From a virus: a DNA stretch of 31,674 bases. Location: positions 1 through 31,674 of IMG/VR virus record IMGVR_UViG_3300030450_004028; one strand, written 5' to 3'. The notes under the pieces were generated by a model. It searched no databases, had not been told where the DNA came from, and saw only the letters and a program-made list of their open reading frames with translations. Shown piece by piece: positions 2,862 through 15,093 of this stretch. Position numbers and translations under genes: made by a program. Numbering within the stretch: the first letter of the stretch is position 1; every line of letters starts with the position of its first letter.

Positions 2862-2992
2862 GTCCCTATTCCGACTTTGCCAGCTTTTCTTTTTTTTCTT
2901 GCTATTTGAGCTGGCGTTCTTCCTTCTCTTTTCAGCTTTATATTCAATAATATTCTAGCCCTTTTTCTTTGCTTTGCCCTTTTGTTTGGCAT
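2858..2992 (-). CDS. Small highly basic protein, 44 aa
   Basis: ORF of 44 residues beginning MPNKRAKQRKRARILL and ending KAGKVGIGT. About one third is Lys or Arg, and it contains a segment GRTPAQIARKKRK. Its ATG overlaps the stop of the upstream gene as TAATG, a sign of translational coupling. It is the last gene of the leftward operon, and its stop shares TTAA with the stop of the convergent large gene. Small basic proteins like this are common in marine phages; nucleic-acid or ribosome binding is a guess from charge. Function unknown. Confidence 0.75.
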   Translation of the reverse strand: MPNKRAKQRKRARILLNIKLKREGRTPAQIARKKRKAGKVGIGT

Positions 2993-3477
2993 TATTTACC
3001 CCATTTGCCCTTTTTTACTATAGTTGCCATGATACCATAATTAGATAGATCTAAAAAAGCATCTTCTAATGGTTCATTAACGGCTGTCTTCCTTTCGCCT
3101 AATAACATATTTTTTGCTCTTTGGATTTTATCGTTCATTCTAAACCATAATCCAGTTAAGGCGACCCTAACTTCATTTATAGTTCTTAAATCTGTACCAA
3201 CAGATATATTCTTAGGACCATAATCATGCTGCTTATGACAAAAGAGTACATATTGCTCTCTTTGTATCTCCTTAAAGGCTTCTGTTGTTATTGGATAGTC
3301 TTTTTCCATTAGAGCAACAATTTCATCTTCATCAATTTTTATTTCAGTAGCATCTGCCATACTAATTTTCATTTCTTTCTCCTTATTCTTGCAGTCGGGG
3401 CACTGTCGTGCCCCTCCTGCTACTGGTTTATCGCAATCTATGCAATGTATAGGTAACGGCATCGGGAATGGACTCAC
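2992..3477 (-). CDS. Zinc-ribbon plus DUF1599/Nmad1-like protein
   Basis: Read from a GTG at 3477 that overlaps the upstream stop as TAGTG and has GGAGG six bases before it, giving 161 aa. Residues about 12-29 form a CxxC...CxxC zinc ribbon (CIDC and CPDC). The rest carries a pattern like the phage DUF1599/nucleotide-modification-associated family: a QHDYGP segment, then a helix with Arg and Lys residues, then LEDAFLDLSNYGIM near the end. Family members occur in phages beside nucleotide metabolism genes, and their biochemical role is not well established. An in-frame ATG at 3372 has a stronger site (AAGGAG) and would give a 126-aa product lacking the zinc ribbon, so two products may be made. 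A strong hairpin lies between the two starts. The family call is by eye. Confidence 0.7.
   Translation of the reverse strand: MSPFPMPLPIHCIDCDKPVAGGARQCPDCKNKEKEMKISMADATEIKIDEDEIVALMEKDYPITTEAFKEIQREQYVLFCHKQHDYGPKNISVGTDLRTINEVRVALTGLWFRMNDKIQRAKNMLLGERKTAVNEPLEDAFLDLSNYGIMATIVKKGKWGK
3391..3420 (-). promoter_or_regulatory. GA-loop hairpin 1, upstream of internal start at 3372
   Basis: On the mRNA strand: outer stem GCAG/CTGC, symmetrical internal loop GA/GA, inner stem GGGGCAC/GTGCCCC, loop GACA. It is followed within a few bases by AAGGAG and an in-frame ATG at 3372. It lies inside codons for the zinc ribbon. Two other hairpins in the window (6100-6141 and 12810-12841) share the layout with different stem sequences. 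A tandem G-A internal loop normally forms sheared pairs in RNA, so this probably acts in the transcript, for example in processing or in control of the internal start. The role is inferred. Confidence 0.55.
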
Positions 3478-3719
3478 TAATTGTCCTCCCACTCCATTTC
3501 TTTGTTACATTCTTTACACCAAGCACCTTGCGTTATATTGTTTTCAGGTTCATTTGATTGATAATTAATATCTTCATGGTCACATAAAGCATCCCTAAGC
3601 ATGCTTATATTGTCTTCCATTGATCTTTCTAATATGAAATCTGTTTGAAACAGGATCTCTTTAGCGTTATCAATCTTCTCTTCTAATTCTTCAACTAATA
3701 TTTCTGATAAACTCCTCAT
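3477..3719 (-). CDS. Hypothetical protein, 80 aa, with C-terminal Cys/His residues
   Basis: Begins MRSLSEILVEELEEKIDNAKE with GGAGG well placed before the ATG, and overlaps the upstream stop as ATGA. The N-terminal half looks like a charged amphipathic helix. The C-terminal half has LCDHEDI and WCKECNKEMEWED, so Cys and His residues could bind one metal ion. No family recognised. It is one link in a chain of overlapping small leftward genes. Confidence 0.75.
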   Translation of the reverse strand: MRSLSEILVEELEEKIDNAKEILFQTDFILERSMEDNISMLRDALCDHEDINYQSNEPENNITQGAWCKECNKEMEWEDN

Positions 3720-4869: not shown

Positions 4870-4873
4870 CTAA
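4801..4873 (-). ncRNA. Candidate structured RNA, tRNA-sized multi-branch fold
   Basis: An 11-bp closing stem, TTAGGGAGCTA with TAGCTCCCTAA, encloses about 50 bases that contain two more small stems: ATGCC/GGCAT (6-nt loop) and GCAGA/TCTGT (7-nt loop, one G-T pair). Size and layout resemble a tRNA without a D-arm, but position 33 is not T and the T-loop is not canonical, so I do not call a tRNA. The last bases of the closing stem overlap the stop of the resolvase gene. It could be a processing signal or 3' protective fold. Confidence 0.4.
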
Positions 4874-5184
4874 TCCTTCGATAAAATGCCTATCAGGTCC
4901 ATAAATGGCATTAAAACCATTGGAACCTCTCTATCCTCTCTAATAACTACAGCATCACAGTTACCAAGCTTTAAATACGCAGGTAATGCAGCACGTCTTT
5001 TAGCTTGGATCTTAAAGTTTTCAAGATATCCAAATTTCTCCACGAGGATGTCAACGTCTTCTTCAAGACCCAATGATTTACCATTGCTACCCCAAGCACG
5101 CTTAGCCTTAATACCATTTTCATTAAGGATTTGAACAATTTCATTTTCGAATCTTGTTCCTTTTCTTTTAGATTTATTTGCCAT
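4870..5184 (-). CDS. Holliday-junction-resolvase-like nuclease (PD-(D/E)xK fold)
   Basis: Starting at the ATG at 5184 gives 104 aa beginning MANKSKRKGTRFENEIV. The pattern KGTRFENEIV near residue 10, a central EDVDILV near 43 and an FKIQAKRR segment near 58-64 match the E...D...QxK layout of archaeal Hjc-like and related phage resolvases in the restriction-endonuclease fold. Such enzymes cut branched DNA in replication and packaging. A TTG at 5199 would add five residues but is less likely. The start overlaps the end of the 57-aa gene by 11 bases. Being next to recombination and replication genes supports the call. Confidence 0.7.
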   Translation of the reverse strand: MANKSKRKGTRFENEIVQILNENGIKAKRAWGSNGKSLGLEEDVDILVEKFGYLENFKIQAKRRAALPAYLKLGNCDAVVIREDREVPMVLMPFMDLIGILSKD

Positions 5185-5347
5185 TATACACTCTGTCAAT
5201 TTCTCTTTCTGGCATCTTATCTATAATTTGTTGCAATTTTTGTATCCTAGATGTTTTGCCATTATTTATTTTTAAATTTACAAGATAGTCCATTAAGGCA
5301 ATCTTAATAATTTCTGTTTCTTCAAAATCATAGCTAACTTTATCCAT
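5174..5347 (-). CDS. Hypothetical protein, 57 aa
   Basis: A short ORF beginning MDKVSYDFEETEIIKIALMDYL and ending EIDRVYNGK, preceded by GGAG seven bases before the ATG. It overlaps the 61-aa gene upstream by eight bases and the resolvase start downstream by eleven, so it fills what would otherwise be a gap. It is predicted to be mostly helical. No family recognised; it could be a partner of the nuclease that follows. Confidence 0.65.
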   Translation of the reverse strand: MDKVSYDFEETEIIKIALMDYLVNLKINNGKTSRIQKLQQIIDKMPEREIDRVYNGK

Positions 5348-5525
5348 TTACACTCCAAATACTTAACTGAGTTGATATCTCAAATGGTGTTATTCCAACA
5401 CCAATATTCAAATGAGAACCATTATTACTATTGTGGGTTAAAGTTACTGAGAATAACCACAGGAATACAAATCGTATTCCTGTTATATCTCCTTTTGTGT
5501 ATTTAGTTAAATTGAAGAATTGCAT
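5340..5525 (-). CDS. Hypothetical protein, 61 aa, beta-rich
   Basis: ATG overlaps the stop of the Gp157-like gene as TAATG. The sequence begins MQFFNLTKYTKGDITG, has a hydrophobic stretch FVFLWLFSVTLTH and a Gly- and Ile-rich second half (IGVGITPFEIS). The hydrophobic part is too short and too interrupted for a clear membrane helix, so a small beta-fold seems likelier. Function unknown. Confidence 0.6.
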   Translation of the reverse strand: MQFFNLTKYTKGDITGIRFVFLWLFSVTLTHNSNNGSHLNIGVGITPFEISTQLSIWSVNG

Positions 5526-6082
5526 TATGATATTTTTAACCTCTTTACTTTCGGGATCTTAGCATAATCGGTATCACCGTTTGCTAAAATATCCTTTCTT
5601 AAACGGGCCTTATCGACCTCTACTTTTATTCGTGTATATTCCTGAGGAACCTCTGTTTCATCTGGAATTTCTAATGGACCAGGTGCTTCATAAGAAGTAT
5701 ACTTAAATCCATTCTTCTCAATTGTTGTTTTACCTTCGGATCCTTTTCCGACATTATCAACAAGCATAATTATTAGCTCTTCAAGACGTTTCCAGCCGTT
5801 ATCTGTGGCTGCTAATTTTCTTTTTAAACTAGTTAAAACATCTTGATATACTTTGATTTGACTTTTTAATTGCTCTTTCATCAGATCTTTTTTGACCATA
5901 ACATGTTCAATGTTTTCAACTTTCTCCATTATTGTACCTGTTATGTCCTCGACTTTATCTTCTAATTCTGCTTTCTTATCTTCGTCATCTTCCATTTGCA
6001 TATCTAGATGAGCATCAAAGTATTCTTCGAGCAATTGATAGGATGTTAATCTATCTTCTTTTTTATCAGGTAATGTTTCCAT
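5525..6082 (-). CDS. Siphovirus Gp157-like protein
   Basis: The ATG at 6082 was chosen because AAGGAG lies seven bases before it; the longer frame to 6259 runs into the helicase gene. This gives 185 aa beginning METLPDKKEDRLTSYQLLEEYFDAHL. The layout matches the Gp157 family: an acidic N-terminal helix pair, a long coiled coil (about residues 40-95), a short beta hairpin with an FKYTSYEAPGPLEIP-like segment, then IP/VP-x-EYTR, a charged helix DKARLRKDILANG and a basic end KVKRLKI. The founding member is from Streptococcus thermophilus phages, and bacteria carrying the gene were suggested to be more phage resistant. A molecular function is not established. It sits beside replication genes, as is usual. 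Confidence 0.75.
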   Translation of the reverse strand: METLPDKKEDRLTSYQLLEEYFDAHLDMQMEDDEDKKAELEDKVEDITGTIMEKVENIEHVMVKKDLMKEQLKSQIKVYQDVLTSLKRKLAATDNGWKRLEELIIMLVDNVGKGSEGKTTIEKNGFKYTSYEAPGPLEIPDETEVPQEYTRIKVEVDKARLRKDILANGDTDYAKIPKVKRLKIS

Positions 6083-6099
6083 TACTTGCTCCTTCTTTC

Positions 6100-6141
6100 G
6101 GGCTCGCTCGCTCCGCTCGCTATTGGCTCGCGAGCTCGCCC
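6100..6141 (-). promoter_or_regulatory. GA-loop hairpin 2, upstream of the Gp157-like gene
   Basis: On the mRNA strand: outer stem GGGC/GCCC, internal loop GA/GA, inner stem GCTCGC/GCGAGC, 18-nt loop. It overlaps the last codons and stop of the helicase gene and ends five bases before the AAGGAG of the Gp157-like gene. The segment is far more GC-rich than its surroundings. Other pairings among the repeated GCGAGC units are possible. It shares its layout with the hairpins at 3391 and 12810. Confidence 0.55.
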
Positions 6142-7901
6142 TGTATTTCATTAAACTGAAAGTATAAAGGATTATACTCCAGTGTTGTTTCAAAGTTATT
6201 AGCGTCTCTTGATTTAAGAGATCTAAAAACTCTAAGCTGCGAATCTCTATCCCCTTCAATAGCCATTACTTTATCAGCTTTTTGTGCTATTGAAGACGAA
6301 TGCTTTGCAGCGTGAACGTCAAGTCTACCATCTCTACTACCAGATTTAGTAATATGAGAAACTCCTATTATAATAATATCTTGCGCGGATACTATTTGTC
6401 TCAATCCTTGAATGATATGGTCTGTTTTAACCATACTATCTGAGATATATTGAGTAGATCCAAGACCATCAATAGTATCAATGACAAGAATCTTAGGCAT
6501 TGTTTCTGCTACTAAATGTTTTACCCCTTCAATTGTAGGTGGTACTGTAAGACATTGAATATAATCAATGTCTTTACTCCAGGAATTGCTATTGTGCATA
6601 TAGTGTTCATCAACTTCTTGAGAGGTTTTAGACTTATCTATTTGTAAGAATCTTCTATACATTAAATAATCGTCAAACTCTAAAGATAACCATAATGTTT
6701 TTAGCTTAGCTCTTAATACAATATTTTGCATAAGACCTGTTTTTCCTAATCCAGTATCTCCCATTAAAATGGATAATTCATTAGGTAGAAACCAATAGTC
6801 TGATCCAATAGATGGATACAGATCCTTTAAGTTAAACCCATGTTCATGGAGATTGTTTCGGATACGCTCAACGTATCTTTTCTCCATATCTTCTGCAGAT
6901 AAAACTGCAACCATTGGGTCATTACCTTTTGCTTTACTTGGATAGTAAATGCATTTAGGATCACAATATTCGTCCATTATTTTATCATGACAACCATAAC
7001 GATATGAACCAGCATAAGAAGAAGCTACCATATTTTCTCTTTCTTTGAGATCCATGTTTGGAGCCCAACCAGATACAATAGAGGTAACAGCTTCTTGAGG
7101 AATACCATGTCTTCTATAATAAGAAATCATTCTTAAAAGAGTAATATGGCGTCTTCCTACTTTCGGTCCTTCGTTATACATTTTCTGAACACAAGGCGCT
7201 ATTGAACTAACTTCAACTTGCCTTGTTCCTTGAGATCCAACATCTTGGTCATTAGAACGAGTAGGAATTACAGGATCAAACATCTTTGTAATTTCTACAT
7301 CTTTTTGTTCTATGTCTCTAAAAGGATTTTCAGCTTCTTTGTGAATTTCCTTCCAGTTCAATGTCATTATCTCCCTTACAGTAAAGGGAGTTTTATATAA
7401 TCCAGTTTTGCTATTTTTAGTATAGCCAACACGGATTATTCTTGTTCTGTCATAGATACTTGGATCTGCTTCTGGAAAATATCTAGTTAATGTTTCTTTA
7501 ACTATTTGCGGTAGGTTTTTAGATGGTTCAAAACCAAAGATATTTGGTAAATGAATATGATAACCTGTACCAGAAAACCAGGGTTGAATCCAATCTTCTG
7601 GTATCTCTAGGCCATCTAGCATATTTCTAATGCATTCTCTTGTTCTTTCTAGAACATATTCATCTGTGTTGCCACCTTTATCAATATCTAAGATAATTCT
7701 ATCTAGATAGCATTTACCTTTAAAGGATTTAACAGTTTTGAATGTTTCGAGATGCTTTGGAAAGTCTGAATTAAATGTATAGTAAGATCTATACAATTCA
7801 TCGCCATTTAAATATTCTTTTAGACTATCTAATGGTATTGCTTGATTCCTGTTCACAGTAGAGCCAACGGCAACTTCTATGTACCTTTTGGTTTCAAACA
7901 T
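6120..7901 (-). CDS. AEP-type primase fused to RecA/DnaB-fold helicase
   Basis: A 593-aa replication protein. The N-terminal part looks like an archaeo-eukaryotic-type primase: LDID at 71-74 supplies metal-binding acidic residues, SGTGYHIHLP at 110-119 matches the conserved His strand, and DRTRIIRV at 151-158 the following basic strand. A middle domain has Cys237, Cys304, Cys313 and Cys317, spaced like the zinc or iron-sulphur segment seen after AEP domains. The C-terminal part has Walker A GDTGLGKT at 381-388, Walker B ILVIDTID at 471-478 and a SH sensor-like strand near 516. It would unwind the fork and make primers. No DNA polymerase gene lies in the window. Start ATG at 7901; the ribosome site is weak. 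Strong call for both domains, weaker for the metal type. Confidence 0.88.
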   Translation of the reverse strand: MFETKRYIEVAVGSTVNRNQAIPLDSLKEYLNGDELYRSYYTFNSDFPKHLETFKTVKSFKGKCYLDRIILDIDKGGNTDEYVLERTRECIRNMLDGLEIPEDWIQPWFSGTGYHIHLPNIFGFEPSKNLPQIVKETLTRYFPEADPSIYDRTRIIRVGYTKNSKTGLYKTPFTVREIMTLNWKEIHKEAENPFRDIEQKDVEITKMFDPVIPTRSNDQDVGSQGTRQVEVSSIAPCVQKMYNEGPKVGRRHITLLRMISYYRRHGIPQEAVTSIVSGWAPNMDLKERENMVASSYAGSYRYGCHDKIMDEYCDPKCIYYPSKAKGNDPMVAVLSAEDMEKRYVERIRNNLHEHGFNLKDLYPSIGSDYWFLPNELSILMGDTGLGKTGLMQNIVLRAKLKTLWLSLEFDDYLMYRRFLQIDKSKTSQEVDEHYMHNSNSWSKDIDYIQCLTVPPTIEGVKHLVAETMPKILVIDTIDGLGSTQYISDSMVKTDHIIQGLRQIVSAQDIIIIGVSHITKSGSRDGRLDVHAAKHSSSIAQKADKVMAIEGDRDSQLRVFRSLKSRDANNFETTLEYNPLYFQFNEIQGELASQ

Positions 7902-8184: not shown

Positions 8185-8783
8185 TACAACGCTTCAGTTG
8201 AAACTGAAGACATTGCTTTAGCAACCGATTCTTTAACAGGTTGTGCTTCTGAATTAGGAGCCTTATAGTTCTTAGGATATCCTTTAGCTACTTGACTCAT
8301 AAAATATTCAGCAAATTTCGCTGAATCTCTTTCAGCTGAAGTAACACTATTCCAAGTGCTATATTTCAACTTGTCACTTGTACTGTTTTTATTAGTATAG
8401 GTTAAAGTTTTGATCTTTTTACCAATACATCCAGTAAGTAGTTTAGGAGATGGGATACCATTTGAATTTAAACCTTCTTGAACGTCTTTATCTGTCATGC
8501 CACAAGCAACGAACAGGTCCTTTAGTTTAAATGCACCACCCCAATCTTCAATCTCTTTTGTGATAGGATCCTTTTTATAATTCCCACCAATTGTTACTGT
8601 TCTATCCCAATCGTTCTTTAATACAAGAACTTCTAGCTTAATAGAAACATCACGGGAAAATCCGCTGGATTTTTCCTGTTCAGTAACATCACTAGCTTTT
8701 TTAATTTCTACCTCATCAACGTATATTCCGTTGCCCATGTAACCTTCTGCGGAGTTTCCTCCACCTGATAATGATAAAGCCAT
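8184..8783 (-). CDS. Possible single-strand DNA-binding protein
   Basis: 199 aa, begins MALSLSGGGNSAEGYMGNG, with GGAG before the ATG and a TAATG overlap with the ATPase gene. The middle is beta-rich (VSIKLEVLVLKNDWDRTVTIGG), compatible with an OB-fold, followed by KIKTLTYTNKN and a low-complexity tail. In many phages the gene after a Sak4-like ATPase encodes an SSB-like protein, which is the main reason for this call. No acidic C-terminal tail typical of bacterial SSB is present. It may be another DNA-binding protein. Confidence 0.5.
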   Translation of the reverse strand: MALSLSGGGNSAEGYMGNGIYVDEVEIKKASDVTEQEKSSGFSRDVSIKLEVLVLKNDWDRTVTIGGNYKKDPITKEIEDWGGAFKLKDLFVACGMTDKDVQEGLNSNGIPSPKLLTGCIGKKIKTLTYTNKNSTSDKLKYSTWNSVTSAERDSAKFAEYFMSQVAKGYPKNYKAPNSEAQPVKESVAKAMSSVSTEAL

Positions 8784-9460
8784 TATTTAGCTCCTTTCTT
8801 AATATAGATTCTATCCCATTCAAAAGGCATTATCTGACCTTTTAAATGCTCACATCGTGAACCAGCTTCTAAAGCTGAACCACCTTTAAACGAAACCATT
8901 AGCTCATCGGTTTCATCATCTCTGAACATATACCCAATGGCATCACAATGAGCCATTATCATGTTCTTAAGCTTTCCTGAAATATCTAAACTTTCTGGAT
9001 CAACTTGAGTAGTATTCTCAATTTCTCTAGCTATTTTCCTATGCCCAACAATAATGACATTATCACATAGCTTTAGAAGAGTTTTAACATTATTCATTAC
9101 ACGATCCCTAACTAATTGCCATCCCAATCCGAAGTTTCCAACGTCTTGTATTTTATCAACATTATGTTCTGCACATACTGCTTTTTCTGTCCATTCGATA
9201 AGCTTATCAATAGTATCTAAAGCAAAGTATTTATAATCGTGACCTTCATTAGCTTCATTGTAAAAGCTAATTAATTCTTCCTTTGAATTCACTTCAAAGA
9301 AATGACCTTCTAACAAATGAGAACCTTGTTCTGTATCAATTGTAAGACAGTTATTAAGTTTAGATAGTATTGTAGTTTTCCCAACTTTGGGCGGACCATA
9401 CAATAATAAAGTTCTTGGATTGACCTCTTTGATTCCTCTTTTTTCTTTACTTAAAGCCAT
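8783..9460 (-). CDS. Sak4-like RecA-fold recombinase ATPase
   Basis: 225 aa. Walker A GPPKVGKTT at 22-30, Walker B FALDTID at 79-85, and a strand ending in VIIVGHRK around 135-142 match phage Sak4-type single-strand annealing ATPases, which are RecA-core proteins that act in phage recombination with an SSB partner. The following gene is an SSB candidate and further along is a resolvase, so a recombination set is plausible. The ATG at 9460 has AGAGG 13 bases away, which is far; a second copy of the same purine motif lies just upstream of that. Confidence 0.78.
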   Translation of the reverse strand: MALSKEKRGIKEVNPRTLLLYGPPKVGKTTILSKLNNCLTIDTEQGSHLLEGHFFEVNSKEELISFYNEANEGHDYKYFALDTIDKLIEWTEKAVCAEHNVDKIQDVGNFGLGWQLVRDRVMNNVKTLLKLCDNVIIVGHRKIAREIENTTQVDPESLDISGKLKNMIMAHCDAIGYMFRDDETDELMVSFKGGSALEAGSRCEHLKGQIMPFEWDRIYIKKGAK

Positions 9461-9588: not shown

Positions 9589-10383
9589 TTATTGTGATTT
9601 TCTCAAATCATTTGCAAACTTGGTATAGTCTATTTCTGCATCCAATAATAAACTCGGAAATCCGAATAATATCTTTTCTGCGACCATACCTCCAGTTGTA
9701 CATTTTTTGACTTCTGATGCAATGATACTTCCTGCAAATGTACTGCAATATGCAGTTGATCTTGCTGAGCAAGGTTCAGGATCACCATCTTCATCAGAAT
9801 ACCAAGTTTTCAAATAGTCATCAGTAGTAAATGGCATTTTGAATTTATACAATTGGAAAGTTTCACTACCCATTCTAGCATCAAAGAAATATGCGTTTTC
9901 ACAAAACGTACTATTACTTTGATCTAATCCTTCACATACTGTTCTAAAGGCAGGATGTTGTATAATATCCATACGAGCTTCCATAGAGTCTACTGCCATT
10001 ATACAAACATCTGTAGGTGGACCATCTTCGTCAGTTCGACTAGCATAAATTCCTTCTGTAAGGAATCGTCCTCCATCTCTTGTAACATTGCGATTAATTG
10101 ATCTAACATGTGCTAGTGGATTTATGGACTTAATGTTTTGTTCTACACAATGAACTTTATTATCATTAAGCTGGTGAATAGTGAAGTCTTGAACTCCAAT
10201 ATTCTCAGGGGCAACAACATCTTCATCGTATAAAGAAAATCTCATTACACCCATTCTAGCTAAAGTAGATGCAGTAAAAGAACCTATAGATCCACAGCCA
10301 ATTATGCTAACACGAGTCCTGGTTAAATTGAATATACCACTATTTCTAGATCTAATAGTATTCATATCAACAGCTTCTCTCAT
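9589..10383 (-). CDS. E1/ThiF-like ubiquitin-like-protein-activating enzyme
   Basis: 264 aa, one adenylation domain. GCGSIG at 29-34 is the nucleotide-binding loop; YDEDVV at 52-57 gives the ribose- and magnesium-binding aspartates; Asn61 and Gln65 match the NxxxQ segment; Lys76 and AVDSMEAR at 130-137 match other conserved sites. Cys205 in a PEPCSARS segment, just before a final helix, is where ThiF/E1 enzymes place a catalytic cysteine. The arginine usual in the NLxRQ motif is Val64 here, which is unusual. E1-like enzymes adenylate the C-terminal glycine of a ubiquitin-like protein and pass it to a thiol. GAGGAG precedes the ATG, which overlaps the JAMM gene stop as ATGA. Its partners lie directly upstream. 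It could instead serve sulphur transfer. Confidence 0.85.
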   Translation of the reverse strand: MREAVDMNTIRSRNSGIFNLTRTRVSIIGCGSIGSFTASTLARMGVMRFSLYDEDVVAPENIGVQDFTIHQLNDNKVHCVEQNIKSINPLAHVRSINRNVTRDGGRFLTEGIYASRTDEDGPPTDVCIMAVDSMEARMDIIQHPAFRTVCEGLDQSNSTFCENAYFFDARMGSETFQLYKFKMPFTTDDYLKTWYSDEDGDPEPCSARSTAYCSTFAGSIIASEVKKCTTGGMVAEKILFGFPSLLLDAEIDYTKFANDLRKSQ

Positions 10384-11291
10384 AACATTAGCTCCTCTGC
10401 ATTTTTGATTTTCTGTACTTCTTCAGGATTTGGTACTTTTAACCATTCATTGCCAAAGACTTTATTCATTTTCTCAACATCATCTATAACTTCTTGTGGC
10501 GTAACATGACCTTCGCTTAATGCTTCTAATTGATAATCAATATCAATTAGCGCAGCGTCAATGTTTTGATCATATTCTTCATCAAGCTCAACAGCTTTAG
10601 TAACATCGTCTTTCTTAAGACCAAAACTCTCATTCCAACCTTCTTCATCTAAAATATTATCGTATAGATCGTTATTATAGAGAGTAAGTTGATTTGTTGG
10701 AGTGTCTTTAGAGTCAGATATAGTATCACGAAGAGATTTGAATGGCTTCTTACCCCATCCATTGTAATAGCTTGTTGCCTTTTCTTTAACAACACAAGCT
10801 TTTATCTCATCTTCCATGCCACTAATTTCTTCAACTTGACTGATATTTTCTAAATCACATTCAATTTGAAGTGGTGTTGGTTTATTAATAGATAATATTA
10901 ACTGATATTCTCCTTTGTTATTAACAACTAAAGAAAGACCAGTTTTAGTATCACCTATAGTTCCCCAATCAGTAGCGCTCATTGTCGCTGTCATGTTATG
11001 GTGAGAATGCCACCAGCAATACATTAGTTTATCTTCAGTAACTTCTGCTTTGTATTTTTCTGTTACCTCAGCATACCAATCTGCTAATGCTTGTTTTTCT
11101 AAATGACAAACAGTTGAAGTAACTTCTTGTTTCATTATTGCAGGATCCTGAATAACCCAACGATCTTCATCGTCTTTAATTGCTACTGCCATACCTCCGA
11201 TTTCTGTATTTAGTAATTCGTAGGTTTTTCTTGCATAGCCTAGAATTTTATTCCAGGCTGTGTCTTCGATATGTATTGTATTATGTTCCAT
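10380..11291 (-). CDS. JAMM/JAB-domain metallopeptidase with extra C-terminal region
   Basis: 303 aa. The JAMM motif is complete: Glu30 (NTEIGG), then His95-Ser-His97, seven residues, Ser105, two residues, Asp108. These are the zinc ligands and catalytic residues of ubiquitin-like-protein deconjugases and processing peptidases. Residues about 150-303 are a helical, acidic extension of unknown function. The ATG overlaps the stop of the E2-like gene as TAATG and has GGAG about 11 bases ahead. Next to a ubiquitin-like protein whose Gly-Gly is followed by three residues, the likely jobs are trimming the precursor and removing the modifier from targets. JAMM proteins fused to phage tail proteins or hydrolysing cell wall exist, but context argues against that here. 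Confidence 0.87.
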   Translation of the reverse strand: MEHNTIHIEDTAWNKILGYARKTYELLNTEIGGMAVAIKDDEDRWVIQDPAIMKQEVTSTVCHLEKQALADWYAEVTEKYKAEVTEDKLMYCWWHSHHNMTATMSATDWGTIGDTKTGLSLVVNNKGEYQLILSINKPTPLQIECDLENISQVEEISGMEDEIKACVVKEKATSYYNGWGKKPFKSLRDTISDSKDTPTNQLTLYNNDLYDNILDEEGWNESFGLKKDDVTKAVELDEEYDQNIDAALIDIDYQLEALSEGHVTPQEVIDDVEKMNKVFGNEWLKVPNPEEVQKIKNAEELML

Positions 11292-12781
11292 TATAATGCT
11301 ACTCCATTAATTGGATGAGGTTCTTGATTAGGTTGAACAGATCTATCTGAAAGAAGATCATCTCTATATTTAAGAAGATATGCTAACAATTCATGAGGTA
11401 AAGATTGAACAAAAGGTATATTTGTACTATCATTCCATAAAGTTGCTGATCTTCCTAATATTTCATCATTGCTCATATTGTCTCTATTTTCCAAATATCC
11501 CGAGTTAGCTAAATGCAAACCTACTTCTTCTGTCAAGTGATCATAATCAGCTTCGCCTAAAGAATATATAGTTGCTAATTCAGATACATATTCAGTTCTA
11601 ACGGTATCAACAGAAGAGTCTAGATTGTATTGTATTTCAGGCTCTTCGATTGTATTATCATTATACTTGATACATGTATTAATAAATGCACAATCTCTGT
11701 TCTCACAAATAACCTTAGATTGATGTTCACTCCAACATTGTTCAGCCTGGTTTTCACCATGACGCATAAGCTCTACACCTGTTCCTGCACTAGATGGTAA
11801 CCAATTATAGAATTGATAAATATATCTATGAGGATTAGTGCGATTAAAATCATATGATGTTAACCACCGATGTGTAGACAATGCGATATCTGTGATATTC
11901 ATTGAGGCAAATGCTCGCTCAAGTTCTGTTCCTAGCTCACCTTCACACCAATTTGTACCATCAAAATAAGGATGAAGACTTGCTCCTCTAAGAAATTTTC
12001 GAGCATTATTTCGATAACTAATTCTTCGGTCATTAGCGCTCATTAAATCTTTTATAAAAAGATTTATATCTTTACTGTAGTCATCTAATTTTTCAATTGA
12101 GGTAATAAAGAACTCTGTAAAAGAATCAAATTCATAGCATATTCTTATATCTAGCCAGACATAATCATCACTATGATTGCTTTCTGTGATTTTGTACGGA
12201 ACTCTAACATCAATTTCTTCTCCATCGCTTTCACCCGTAACTCTAATGTCAGGAATTGGTATCTTTAGATCAACATTCCATTGAGGTGCTTTTGTTGACT
12301 TATTATACCAATTTCTTGTCGTAGTAACTTCATCACCTTTTGTTTTGTTTTGCAACCTATAAGATTTGGCATTTTCTTTTCCATATTCACTTGATCTTCG
12401 AACAGTTGCTTCAATATTGAATTGATCTAATATTTCTTTATTAATACTAGATCTAAGGGTTTTATCAAATTTATTCATTATTGATTTAATGGATTTCTCA
12501 CTACCTTCATATTGTTTAACAAAATTGAAGGCTTTCTCAATACTATAAAGCGTTAATGTATCTTCAGAAACAAAATCATTAATTACATTCATAATCTCTG
12601 TGATAGTAACTAATCTTTTTGTTCTTAAGTTTTTACGGAACTCAACAACTTTATCTTTATAAGCTTCTTCTTTGTGAAACTCATCAGGATTTTCTAACTC
12701 AATAGCTTGAGCTATACCATTATATTTTTGCAATGCGCTATCTAAAACGCTAGTAAAATTATGTAAGTAATTAACTCCCAT
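11291..12781 (-). CDS. Unknown 496-aa protein of the Ubl operon, candidate E2-like
   Basis: The ATG at 12781 was chosen since AAGGAG lies just before it; a TTG at 12799 would add six residues. The N-terminal 150 residues are helical. Next comes a beta-rich part (around 165-235), then HPYF at 270-273 and Cys279 in a TNWCEGE segment, followed by helices. E2 enzymes have a beta-meander, an HPN motif, the catalytic Cys about 10 residues later and C-terminal helices, so this region could be an E2-like or RWD-like domain; here His-to-Cys spacing is nine. A cluster Cys349, Cys359, Cys364, Cys370 looks metal-binding. It lies between the Ubl and JAMM genes, where an E2 would fit. I see the motif; the fold is inferred and unproven. 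It might instead be the target or an adaptor. Confidence 0.45.
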   Translation of the reverse strand: MGVNYLHNFTSVLDSALQKYNGIAQAIELENPDEFHKEEAYKDKVVEFRKNLRTKRLVTITEIMNVINDFVSEDTLTLYSIEKAFNFVKQYEGSEKSIKSIMNKFDKTLRSSINKEILDQFNIEATVRRSSEYGKENAKSYRLQNKTKGDEVTTTRNWYNKSTKAPQWNVDLKIPIPDIRVTGESDGEEIDVRVPYKITESNHSDDYVWLDIRICYEFDSFTEFFITSIEKLDDYSKDINLFIKDLMSANDRRISYRNNARKFLRGASLHPYFDGTNWCEGELGTELERAFASMNITDIALSTHRWLTSYDFNRTNPHRYIYQFYNWLPSSAGTGVELMRHGENQAEQCWSEHQSKVICENRDCAFINTCIKYNDNTIEEPEIQYNLDSSVDTVRTEYVSELATIYSLGEADYDHLTEEVGLHLANSGYLENRDNMSNDEILGRSATLWNDSTNIPFVQSLPHELLAYLLKYRDDLLSDRSVQPNQEPHPINGVAL

Positions 12782-12809
12782 TTTTACTCCTTTCTTCAAG
12801 ACTTTTATT

Positions 12810-12841
12810 GCACTTCGGGCTCCTTGCGGAGCCCTCCGTGC
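12810..12841 (-). promoter_or_regulatory. GA-loop hairpin 3, between the Ubl and E2-like genes
   Basis: On the mRNA strand: outer stem GCAC/GTGC, internal loop GGA/GAA, inner stem GGGCTCC/GGAGCCC, and a GCAA tetraloop of the stable GNRA class. It begins 11 bases past the Ubl stop and ends 18 bases before the AAGGAG of the next gene. No T-run follows, so it is not a standard terminator. It could set a processing or attenuation point that makes the small Ubl more abundant than the three enzymes. It shares its layout with the hairpins at 3391 and 6100. Confidence 0.6.
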
Positions 12842-12852
12842 TACCGAGGTGG

Positions 12853-13065
12853 TTATCTAGTATATCCACCAGTTTTTCTGCGAGTAACGAATGTTACAAC
12901 ATCGTTATCTTGCAAAACCATATCGTCAGTTGCATCTCTCTGTCCCACTTTAGCAGTATAATTGCTAATACCTTGAGATGATGCGAAACTAGCAACACTA
13001 GTCCCTTGTGCAACATCAACGAATTCATGGCCTGAGCCATCTAGAACTTTTATGACTTTTATCAT
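12853..13065 (-). CDS. Ubiquitin-like (ThiS/MoaD/PRTRC-C-like) protein, 70 aa
   Basis: 70 aa starting MIKVIKVLDGSGHEF, with AAGGAG seven bases before the ATG. The order is strand, turn, strand, a helix around TSVASFASSQGI, then VLQDNDVVTFVTRR, consistent with a beta-grasp fold. It ends RRKTGGYTR: a Gly-Gly pair followed by Tyr-Thr-Arg. Ubiquitin-like proteins are often made as precursors with residues after Gly-Gly that a peptidase removes, and a JAMM peptidase is encoded two genes on. The F-x-x-RR-x-x-G end also recalls PRTRC system protein C. It is the first of four consecutive genes of a putative conjugation pathway. The domain call rests on length, pattern, the tail and neighbours. Confidence 0.75.
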   Translation of the reverse strand: MIKVIKVLDGSGHEFVDVAQGTSVASFASSQGISNYTAKVGQRDATDDMVLQDNDVVTFVTRRKTGGYTR

Positions 13066-14499: not shown

Positions 14500-14611
14500 T
14501 AGAGAATAGCAACCATATACAAGTTGCTATCCCTACTGTTATTATTGTGTATTTAATAGTATTGAATACTATAAATATCATAGCATCATAGATATATCTT
14601 CTGTTTTTCAT
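14492..14611 (-). CDS. Small single-span membrane peptide, 39 aa
   Basis: Begins MKNRRYIYDAMIFIVFN and continues as a hydrophobic stretch (roughly residues 10-36, with IITVGIATCIWLLF), with a positively charged N-terminus. The ATG overlaps the phosphatase stop as TAATG. It resembles the small membrane peptides common in phage early regions. It is too short to assign to holins or to host-membrane modifiers, but the topology is clear. Confidence 0.65.
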   Translation of the reverse strand: MKNRRYIYDAMIFIVFNTIKYTIITVGIATCIWLLFSNV

Positions 14612-15093
14612 TAGAAGTTACCTTCTGCTACTTGAAAGCATCTTAAACCCTGTTTTCTCCACATATCAACTACTGGACATTTGTCAGAGTTTCTATCGTC
14701 TAAAACAAATAGTACATCATATTCATCCATAATATGCTCTTCATAGATTTCCTGCTTAATAATATGATCAGGTCTATTATCTTTGTTTTTACGCATAAGC
14801 AATAAACAGTCCTGTAAAAGATATCTCTCTAAGAACCTTAAGGTTGGTTCTCTAAATCTTTCTTCACGACCAGATACAAAGATAACATGTCTGTCATCAT
14901 TTAAAGCCCAGCGTAAAACAGTTAATACAGCTAAGTTTACTGCATCTTTATCACAGTCCGTTGCATCAAAGTAATCTCTGCCATGATTGTTAATTGCTAA
15001 TGTACCATCAAGGTCACAAATAATGACAGAATTATCATCATTAAAGCCATATTCATTTAATCCATATAGCTCTCTTTCACTTTTTATAGGCAT
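14611..15093 (-). CDS. Stand-alone polynucleotide 3'-phosphatase (T4 Pnk C-terminal domain-like, HAD fold)
   Basis: 160 aa. HAD motif I CDLDGTLA (Asp27, Asp29), motif II VSGRE (Ser74), Lys113 in a VVKEEI-like IIKQEI segment, and motif IV LDDR (Asp132, Asp133). The order and the end VVDMWRKQGLRCFQVAEGNF closely follow the phosphatase domain of T4 polynucleotide kinase as I remember it ([20 protein letters not shown]). The 5'-kinase domain, which lies before it in T4, is missing, so this should remove 3'-phosphates from DNA or RNA ends but not phosphorylate 5' ends. In T4 this activity repairs host tRNA cut by anticodon nuclease. No RNA ligase is seen nearby. GGGAGG precedes the ATG. Confidence 0.85.
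   Translation of the reverse strand: MPIKSERELYGLNEYGFNDDNSVIICDLDGTLAINNHGRDYFDATDCDKDAVNLAVLTVLRWALNDDRHVIFVSGREERFREPTLRFLERYLLQDCLLLMRKNKDNRPDHIIKQEIYEEHIMDEYDVLFVLDDRNSDKCPVVDMWRKQGLRCFQVAEGNF

Follow-up and report, generated by a model that had tools for sequence, protein, structure and literature searches.

Ubiquitin-like gene sets and the phage locus

Conjugation of ubiquitin-like proteins (Ubls) in bacteria is known mainly as an antiphage defence. The Bil genes BilA-B-C-D follow the order Ubl-E2-JAB-E1 (PMC11354881), and the type 6d operon of Iyer et al. (2006) encodes a Ubl, a JAB peptidase, an E1-like protein, an E2-like protein and an alpha-helical protein (PMC1779556). Among phages, the Lambda TAPI/TAPK tail cluster pairs a Ubl bearing a C-terminal Gly with a JAB peptidase (PMC1779556), and Crassvirales and Flavobacterium phage Fpv1 carry an E1-JAMM cluster annotated as 'thiamine biosynthesis protein' and 'metalloprotease'. 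In the open-access literature that we searched, we met no account of a complete set encoded by a phage.

We analyzed a 31,674-nucleotide stretch of viral DNA (IMG/VR record IMGVR_UViG_3300030450_004028), referred to here as the window. Four neighboring genes on its minus strand, already read as a leftward Ubl, E2-like, JAMM, E1 series in an earlier note made from the sequence alone, were found as open reading frames: a 70-aa Ubl of the ThiS/MoaD beta-grasp type (12853-13065), an E2-like protein (11291-12781 as 496 aa from an ATG, listed as 11291-12799 and 502 aa from a TTG), a 303-aa JAMM/JAB metallopeptidase (10380-11291) and a single-domain, ThiF/UBA5-like E1 of 264 aa (9589-10383). The E2-like and JAMM frames overlap by 1 nt, and those of JAMM and E1 by 4 nt.

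As in Bil, the Ubl, E2, JAMM and E1 are separate proteins in the order Ubl-E2-JAB-E1. The earlier note gave that order correctly (PMC11354881), but the family features of Bil that could be tested are absent. The window Ubl is one domain of 70 aa, whereas BilA has two tandem Ubl domains; the 264-aa E1 is a single ThiF domain, whereas BilD has an inactive and an active adenylation domain together with a Cys domain; and the E2-like protein, at about 500 aa, lacks the CEHH of BilB, reading EGELGTELERAF after Cys285 with no conserved His. Moreover, the window set is carried by phages, in their replication region. With tandem Ubl, two-domain E1 and CEHH E2 all failing, we rejected membership of Bil. 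Membership of PRTRC was rejected as well, PRTRC_ThiF scoring 25.5 against a cutoff of 144.75 and the JAMM protein having no PRTRC_A match.

Other known systems differ in different ways. CBASS Cap2/Cap3 and 6A-MBL have E1 fused to E2, whereas the two are separate genes here; the 6A-MBL model scored 54.5 against a cutoff of 320, and the PADLOC E1-E2 models match the E1 segment only. Unlike type 6d, the window set is viral, shows no alpha-helical fifth gene and has an E2-like protein with HPY before its Cys. The Lambda cluster lacks E1 and E2 and lies in the tail-assembly region. The best matches of the E1 and the JAMM protein, UBA5 and a Caldiarchaeum Rpn11-like protein, point to the UFM1 pathway and the Caldiarchaeum Ub operon, but this is distant sequence similarity only, without a RING protein and with an E2 that is not recognizably UFC1.

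The crAss-like cluster shares several features with the window set. In the crAss genomes examined, an E2-like protein (YMHSH..CLGSG), JAMM and E1 are adjacent, in the same order and in the replication region; the E1 signature DGR..xE is common to both, and the E2-like proteins match structurally. However, E1 identity is only about 25%, and the crAss candidate Ubl (L003:2448-3230) lies inside a larger protein without GG. It was set aside because its beta-grasp could not be confirmed.

The Ubl, E1 and JAMM peptidase

Profile and PDB searches bore out three of the identities proposed in the earlier note, with the E1 as ThiF/UBA5, the JAMM protein as Rpn11-like and the Ubl as ThiS/MoaD, and the catalytic residues are intact. 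All the residues named for the E1 are there: the GCGSIG loop (29-34), Lys76 and Asp132, to which we add Asp53, Asp55, Asn61 and the candidate catalytic Cys205 (9769-9771, minus strand). Residues G29, D53, K76, D132, C205 and C213 are invariant in 116/116 distinct sequences, and the protein matches ThiF at E=1.9e-19. By sequence it thus has what we asked of an E1, namely the motifs for adenylation together with a cysteine that could be catalytic, its activity being inferred. It has no Cys domain, no UFD and no Arg of the N-x-x-R-Q motif. UBA5 is itself a compact E1 whose cysteine lies within the adenylation domain, and it is the best PDB match (1e-16). MccB and PaaA are also among the PDB matches, which would suit non-canonical small-molecule or peptide chemistry, with a P-N or amide bond formed by the E1, the Ubl serving as aminoacyl carrier and JAMM as peptidase. 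We find this hard to credit, since UBA5 matches better, Cys205 is invariant, a Ubl stands in place of a short peptide substrate and the E2-like partner is always present.

The JAMM motif had been claimed as Glu30, His95, His97, Ser105 and Asp108, and every residue is present (HSH at 95-97), so that the pattern E, HxH, SxxD is satisfied. The H, H, S and D occur in 106/106 sequences and the E in 103/106, with gaps in the other three. These counts and those for the E1 were repeated without motif filters, which could bias them. The JAMM family profile is closest to the Caldiarchaeum Rpn11-like protein (E=2.6e-4); the C-terminal half of the protein is of unknown fold.

The Ubl ends, as the earlier note stated, in Gly-Gly plus three residues, with Gly66-Gly67 at 12865-12870 followed by Tyr-Thr-Arg (YTR). 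Pfam ThiS matches 9/31 family members (best 6e-4) and the family profile matches MoaD 1fm0 at E=0.003; these matches identify the 70-aa protein as a beta-grasp and, with its C-terminal Gly, as meeting the description of a modifier. The Ubl matches obtained for loci L141 and L151 proved to be false positives. Most tails in the family stop exactly at GG, and the rest run 1-11 or about 60-126 residues longer; such variation behind GG is what would be expected of a modifier that is matured. Between the Ubl and E2-like genes lies an RNA hairpin (12810-12841, minus strand; GGGCUCC-GCAA-GGAGCCC with an outer GCAC/GUGC stem; z=-4.5) that possibly sets the ratio of Ubl to enzyme. We do not regard it as a special element of this position, as hairpins are common in that gap and equally so after E1.

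A Ubl closest to ThiS/MoaD also raises the possibility of a sulphur carrier, in which the E1 would thiocarboxylate the Ubl in the style of ThiS/ThiF, MoaD/MoeB or CysO/Mec, JAMM would recycle the Ubl, the large protein would be the sulphur acceptor and the product would be a thio-modified base, cofactor or amino acid. Sulphur operons of the JAMM-Ubl-E1 kind have been described (PMC1779556), and the top NCBIfam score of the E1 is ThiS adenylyltransferase ThiF. However, that equivalog score falls below its cutoff (72.8 versus 159), and no rhodanese, desulfurase or cysteine-synthase-like gene was found among the scanned window proteins, so a ThiS/ThiF relay failed our test. The large protein, moreover, is E2-like, with an invariant Cys and a match to a crAss E2-like protein. 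We therefore consider a sulphur carrier improbable.

The candidate E2

No ribosome-binding site precedes the TTG at 12799, whereas the in-frame ATG at 12781 is preceded by AAAGGAGTAAAG and aligns with the starts in relatives. The ATG is therefore the likelier start and gives 496 aa; depending on the start, the protein is 496-502 aa long. Residue numbers used here are counted from the TTG. The candidate catalytic Cys285 (11945-11947, minus strand) is invariant in 84/84 distinct sequences, counted without a motif filter and with duplicate contigs excluded. It is preceded by HPY276-278 (11966-11974, minus strand), but only 48/84 sequences have His at position 276, the others having Phe or Tyr; the histidine of an HPN motif is thus not conserved. 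A four-cysteine, Zn-knuckle-like segment follows (11672-11737, minus strand), its Cys355, 365, 370 and 376 kept in 68, 67, 80 and 73 of the 84, and it is missing from some long variants.

An AlphaFold (AF2) model of the window protein built from only two sequences (pLDDT 36.6) was set aside. The model of a relative, L069, which is only 13% identical to the window protein, reached pLDDT 91.7 and runs helix, beta-meander, HPY, Cys, helices. Against the PDB, Foldseek gave this model only weak UEV matches (TSG101/Vps23, E 1.4-4.4, target TM 0.33-0.41). It also matched a crAss-phage cr128_1 protein (prob 0.90) and a 420-aa viral protein (prob 0.99) whose length fits the E2-like gene of Fpv1; the cr128_1 protein and the Fpv1 gene both sit beside JAMM and E1. 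No E2 appeared among the Pfam and PDB profile matches of the family, which shows no significant sequence similarity to any E2 family, and hhalign against the crAss E2-like proteins was not significant, leaving the structural search as the only link. The earlier proposal of a candidate E2 therefore stands on motif, AF2 topology and crAss structural match, but lacks a significant sequence or PDB fold match, and it is the weakest link of the set.

A conserved set in the replication region

Our family sample comprised about 140 related IMG/VR loci, mostly from uncultivated phages, and adjacency was counted only where enough DNA flanked E1. JAMM adjoins E1 in 102/102 testable loci and the E2 candidate does so in 71/71, while a GG-ending Ubl lies upstream in 74/75, an end seen in 0.7% of other small ORFs. 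The set is therefore not a chance cluster: the fixed order was observed directly, the dispersal that the earlier note had named as refuting its reading did not occur, and the genes are co-inherited (Spearman 0.77-0.83). No bacterial copies were seen in genome scans, and tblastn against 50,697 phage records returned no relatives of the E2 candidate and JAMM. A Sak4-like ssDNA-annealing ATPase gene next to the set (8783-9460, minus strand) was detected downstream of it in 73/98 testable loci, and the primase/DnaB-like helicase fusion at 6120-7901 (minus strand) has a homologue in 136/151 searched stretches, comprising the window and related loci. The tie to replication genes may be operon packing.

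We think it probable that the set is a complete phage-encoded cycle of Ubl conjugation and deconjugation acting during replication, its chemistry, order of transfer and substrates being inferred. JAMM would trim the tail behind Gly-Gly where one is present; the E1 would adenylate the C-terminal Gly and then hold the Ubl as a thioester on Cys205, as in UBA5; the E2-like protein would next accept the Ubl on Cys285 and move it onto lysines of target proteins. As no separate E3 was seen, the E2-like protein perhaps selects targets itself, through its helical and four-cysteine regions. JAMM would also take the tag off. The fixed place of the set beside the Sak4 and primase-helicase genes suggests phage or host proteins of DNA replication and recombination as its likeliest substrates.

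Only this last part is opposed by a role in counter-defence or host takeover, for which there are no test data. With the same conjugation chemistry, the set could tag host proteins (e.g., immune proteins or RNA polymerase), or compete with and strip a Bil/CBASS-type modification of the host. Known bacterial Ubl pathways do serve antiphage defence (PMC10097602; PMC11354881), and the gene order equals that of Bil. However, genes of defence and counter-defence usually vary from one relative to the next. This set, by contrast, is kept by all testable members, where it lies in the replication region, and crAss-like phages, which are unrelated, also have it next to primase and UDG; no host is known. 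On balance, we regard such a role as unlikely, though not negligible.

Phages themselves appear to own a whole Ubl pathway here, built into the replication region as a constant component and not as an accessory. It is possible, and we suggest it only tentatively, that a self-sufficient viral Ubl pathway is at the core of DNA replication or recombination in a large uncultivated group of phages, with a divergent crAss-like form; if so, it would be a phage counterpart of the modification of PCNA and SSB in eukaryotes. The related, unexplained E2-like/JAMM/E1 cluster in cultured crAss-like phages means that the question can be put to the test in a laboratory host. If active, the set would have implications for how ubiquitin signaling arose, and it would be a minimal ubiquitin-like system, with a 70-aa tag, an E1 of about 220-264 aa, one E2-like protein and one peptidase.

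Conservation of the four-gene set

The earlier note had proposed a survey of other phage loci for the order of the four genes, and the genes were found to be kept together: JAMM adjoined E1 in 102 of 102 testable loci, and the E2 candidate came next in 71 of 71, all on distinct contigs. Two IMG/VR scans with different centres gave overlapping sets of 273 and then 355 E1 relatives, and the loci analysed were the best 80 of each. The recurring order in these was Ubl, E2 candidate, JAMM, E1, Sak4-like, primase-helicase. Evolutionary distances of E1, JAMM and the E2 candidate are correlated (Spearman 0.77-0.83), and shared phage ancestry accounts for part of this correlation. All locus counts rest on contigs assembled from metagenomes and picked by E1 similarity, cultured relatives are distant, and function is inferred throughout the set. 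No bacterial genome copy was found by two non-exhaustive pattern scans.

In the window itself, the positions of the four ORFs and every residue named in the earlier note are confirmed. The genes are packed, with overlaps of 1 nt (E2 candidate/JAMM) and 4 nt (JAMM/E1); ATG 12781 is a more probable start for the E2 candidate than TTG 12799. The record, a 31,674-base virus contig, carries genes for terminase, portal, major head protein and tail fibre. It also has replication genes (Sak4, primase/DnaB helicase, Gam-like), which run leftward. The same leftward region encodes, on the minus strand, a PNKP-type phosphatase (14611-15093), a Mu Gam-like end-protection protein (5525-6259), a DUF1599 nucleotide-modification domain (2992-3492) and, weakly so, an Hjc-like nuclease (4870-5199). 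A strong hairpin with a GCAA loop (z=-4.5) lies between the Ubl and E2-like genes (12810-12841, minus strand); relatives have other strong hairpins in this gap, unlike that of the window, and strong hairpins also follow E1.

E1, JAMM and known systems

The window E1 (9589-10383, minus strand) matches Pfam ThiF (E=1.9e-19), and UBA5 is the best PDB match to its family profile (1e-16). Recounted without motif filters and in distinct sequences only, E1 Cys205, Lys76, Asp132 and Gly29 are each present in 116/116, and JAMM HxH/SxxD in 106/106. The canonical ThiF/MoeB E1 motif is N-x-x-R-Q; all family members have N-I-G-V-(Q/S) in the Ile62-Gln65 region. The family E1s lack the ATP-site Arg and have a second invariant cysteine, Cys213, and we have no explanation for either. 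As a single sequence the window JAMM matched only Prok-JAB (0.011); the family profile (41 members) matched the Rpn11-like entry of Caldiarchaeum at 2.6e-4, and aligned with the crAss JAMM at 97% probability.

The likeness to Bil operons that had been suggested holds for gene order, which is common to both, and fails for three other Bil features (PMC11354881). Scores with the PRTRC and ThiF models fall far under their cutoffs. Iyer et al. 2006 (PMC1779556) describe tail clusters of phages that include Ubl and JAB, and bacterial operons made up of Ubl/E2/JAB/E1; the parts consulted contain no complete set in phages. We found no report of a complete phage-encoded set in the open-access library searched; subscription papers and preprints were outside the search.

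The E2 candidate and its relatives in other phages

Sequence and Pfam/PDB profile searches found no relatives of the E2 candidate beyond its own family, in which Cys285 is present in 84/84 sequences although their median pairwise identity is 18%. An AlphaFold2 model of the relative L069, built with 64 aligned family members (pLDDT 91.7), runs from a helix (133-157) through strands (161-212 and 225-230) to FPY237-239, Cys253 and two helices, the last motif aligning with window HPY276-278 and Cys285. Such an order of helix, strands, motif, cysteine and helices is that of the UBC domain. Foldseek of the whole L069 chain against PDB gave no significant match; five TSG101/Vps23 UEV entries recurred weakly (E 1.4-4.4). 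We regard the E2 assignment as likely. A separate E3 was not seen. At loci L035, L038, L049, L056, L058, L068, L078 and L080 the E2-like ORF is longer, at 593-738 aa, and has insertions, and several of the long variants inspected have lost a four-cysteine segment; that this segment chooses targets is speculation.

Cultured and uncultured crAss-like phages have E2-like, JAMM and E1 genes in the window order between primase and UDG (L003:2448-6696; L004:2535-6666; L005:2611-6663), annotated merely as 'metalloprotease' and 'thiamine biosynthesis protein'. Upstream is a candidate Ubl fusion with an NKKIKSGA junction, as yet unconfirmed. Related genes of Flavobacterium phage Fpv1 (L006:3569-7660) are rearranged. 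The L069 model also found matches by Foldseek in BFVD. One (prob 0.90, E=0.017) belongs to crAss-like phage cr128_1, is 435 aa long and agrees in length and phage with the gene adjoining JAMM and E1 in L005. Another (prob 0.99, E=4.7e-4), a viral protein of 420 aa, is inferred from its length to be the Fpv1 counterpart in L006. Therefore, two separate phage groups keep a like protein beside JAMM and E1.

Ubl and its C-terminal tails

The window Ubl by itself matched no profile; 9 of 31 family members matched Pfam ThiS (best 6e-4), and the family profile reached MoaD at 0.003. A GG-bearing Ubl lies upstream in 74 of 75 loci, eleven duplicate contigs included, and a GG-type end is found in only 0.7% of other small ORFs. 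Ten loci at first scored as lacking Ubl all have one: in nine, each inspected, it either lies further upstream or is fused or frame-extended, while the gene layout of the tenth, L083, is shared with L075, one of the nine.

Most Ubl C-termini end exactly at GG, and others continue for 1-11 or ~60-126 residues. Because exact and extended tails are thus mixed, a step in which JAMM would trim the Ubl tail beyond GG is supported. At three loci (L021:2677-3297; L022:2333-3016; L027:2210-2875), Ubl is one partner of a fusion, and a K-T-G-G junction (NKTGG or GKTGG) links it to the second domain, of ~115 aa (KYPF...AAMR); such fusions offer the adjacent JAMM, whose function is inferred, a natural substrate.
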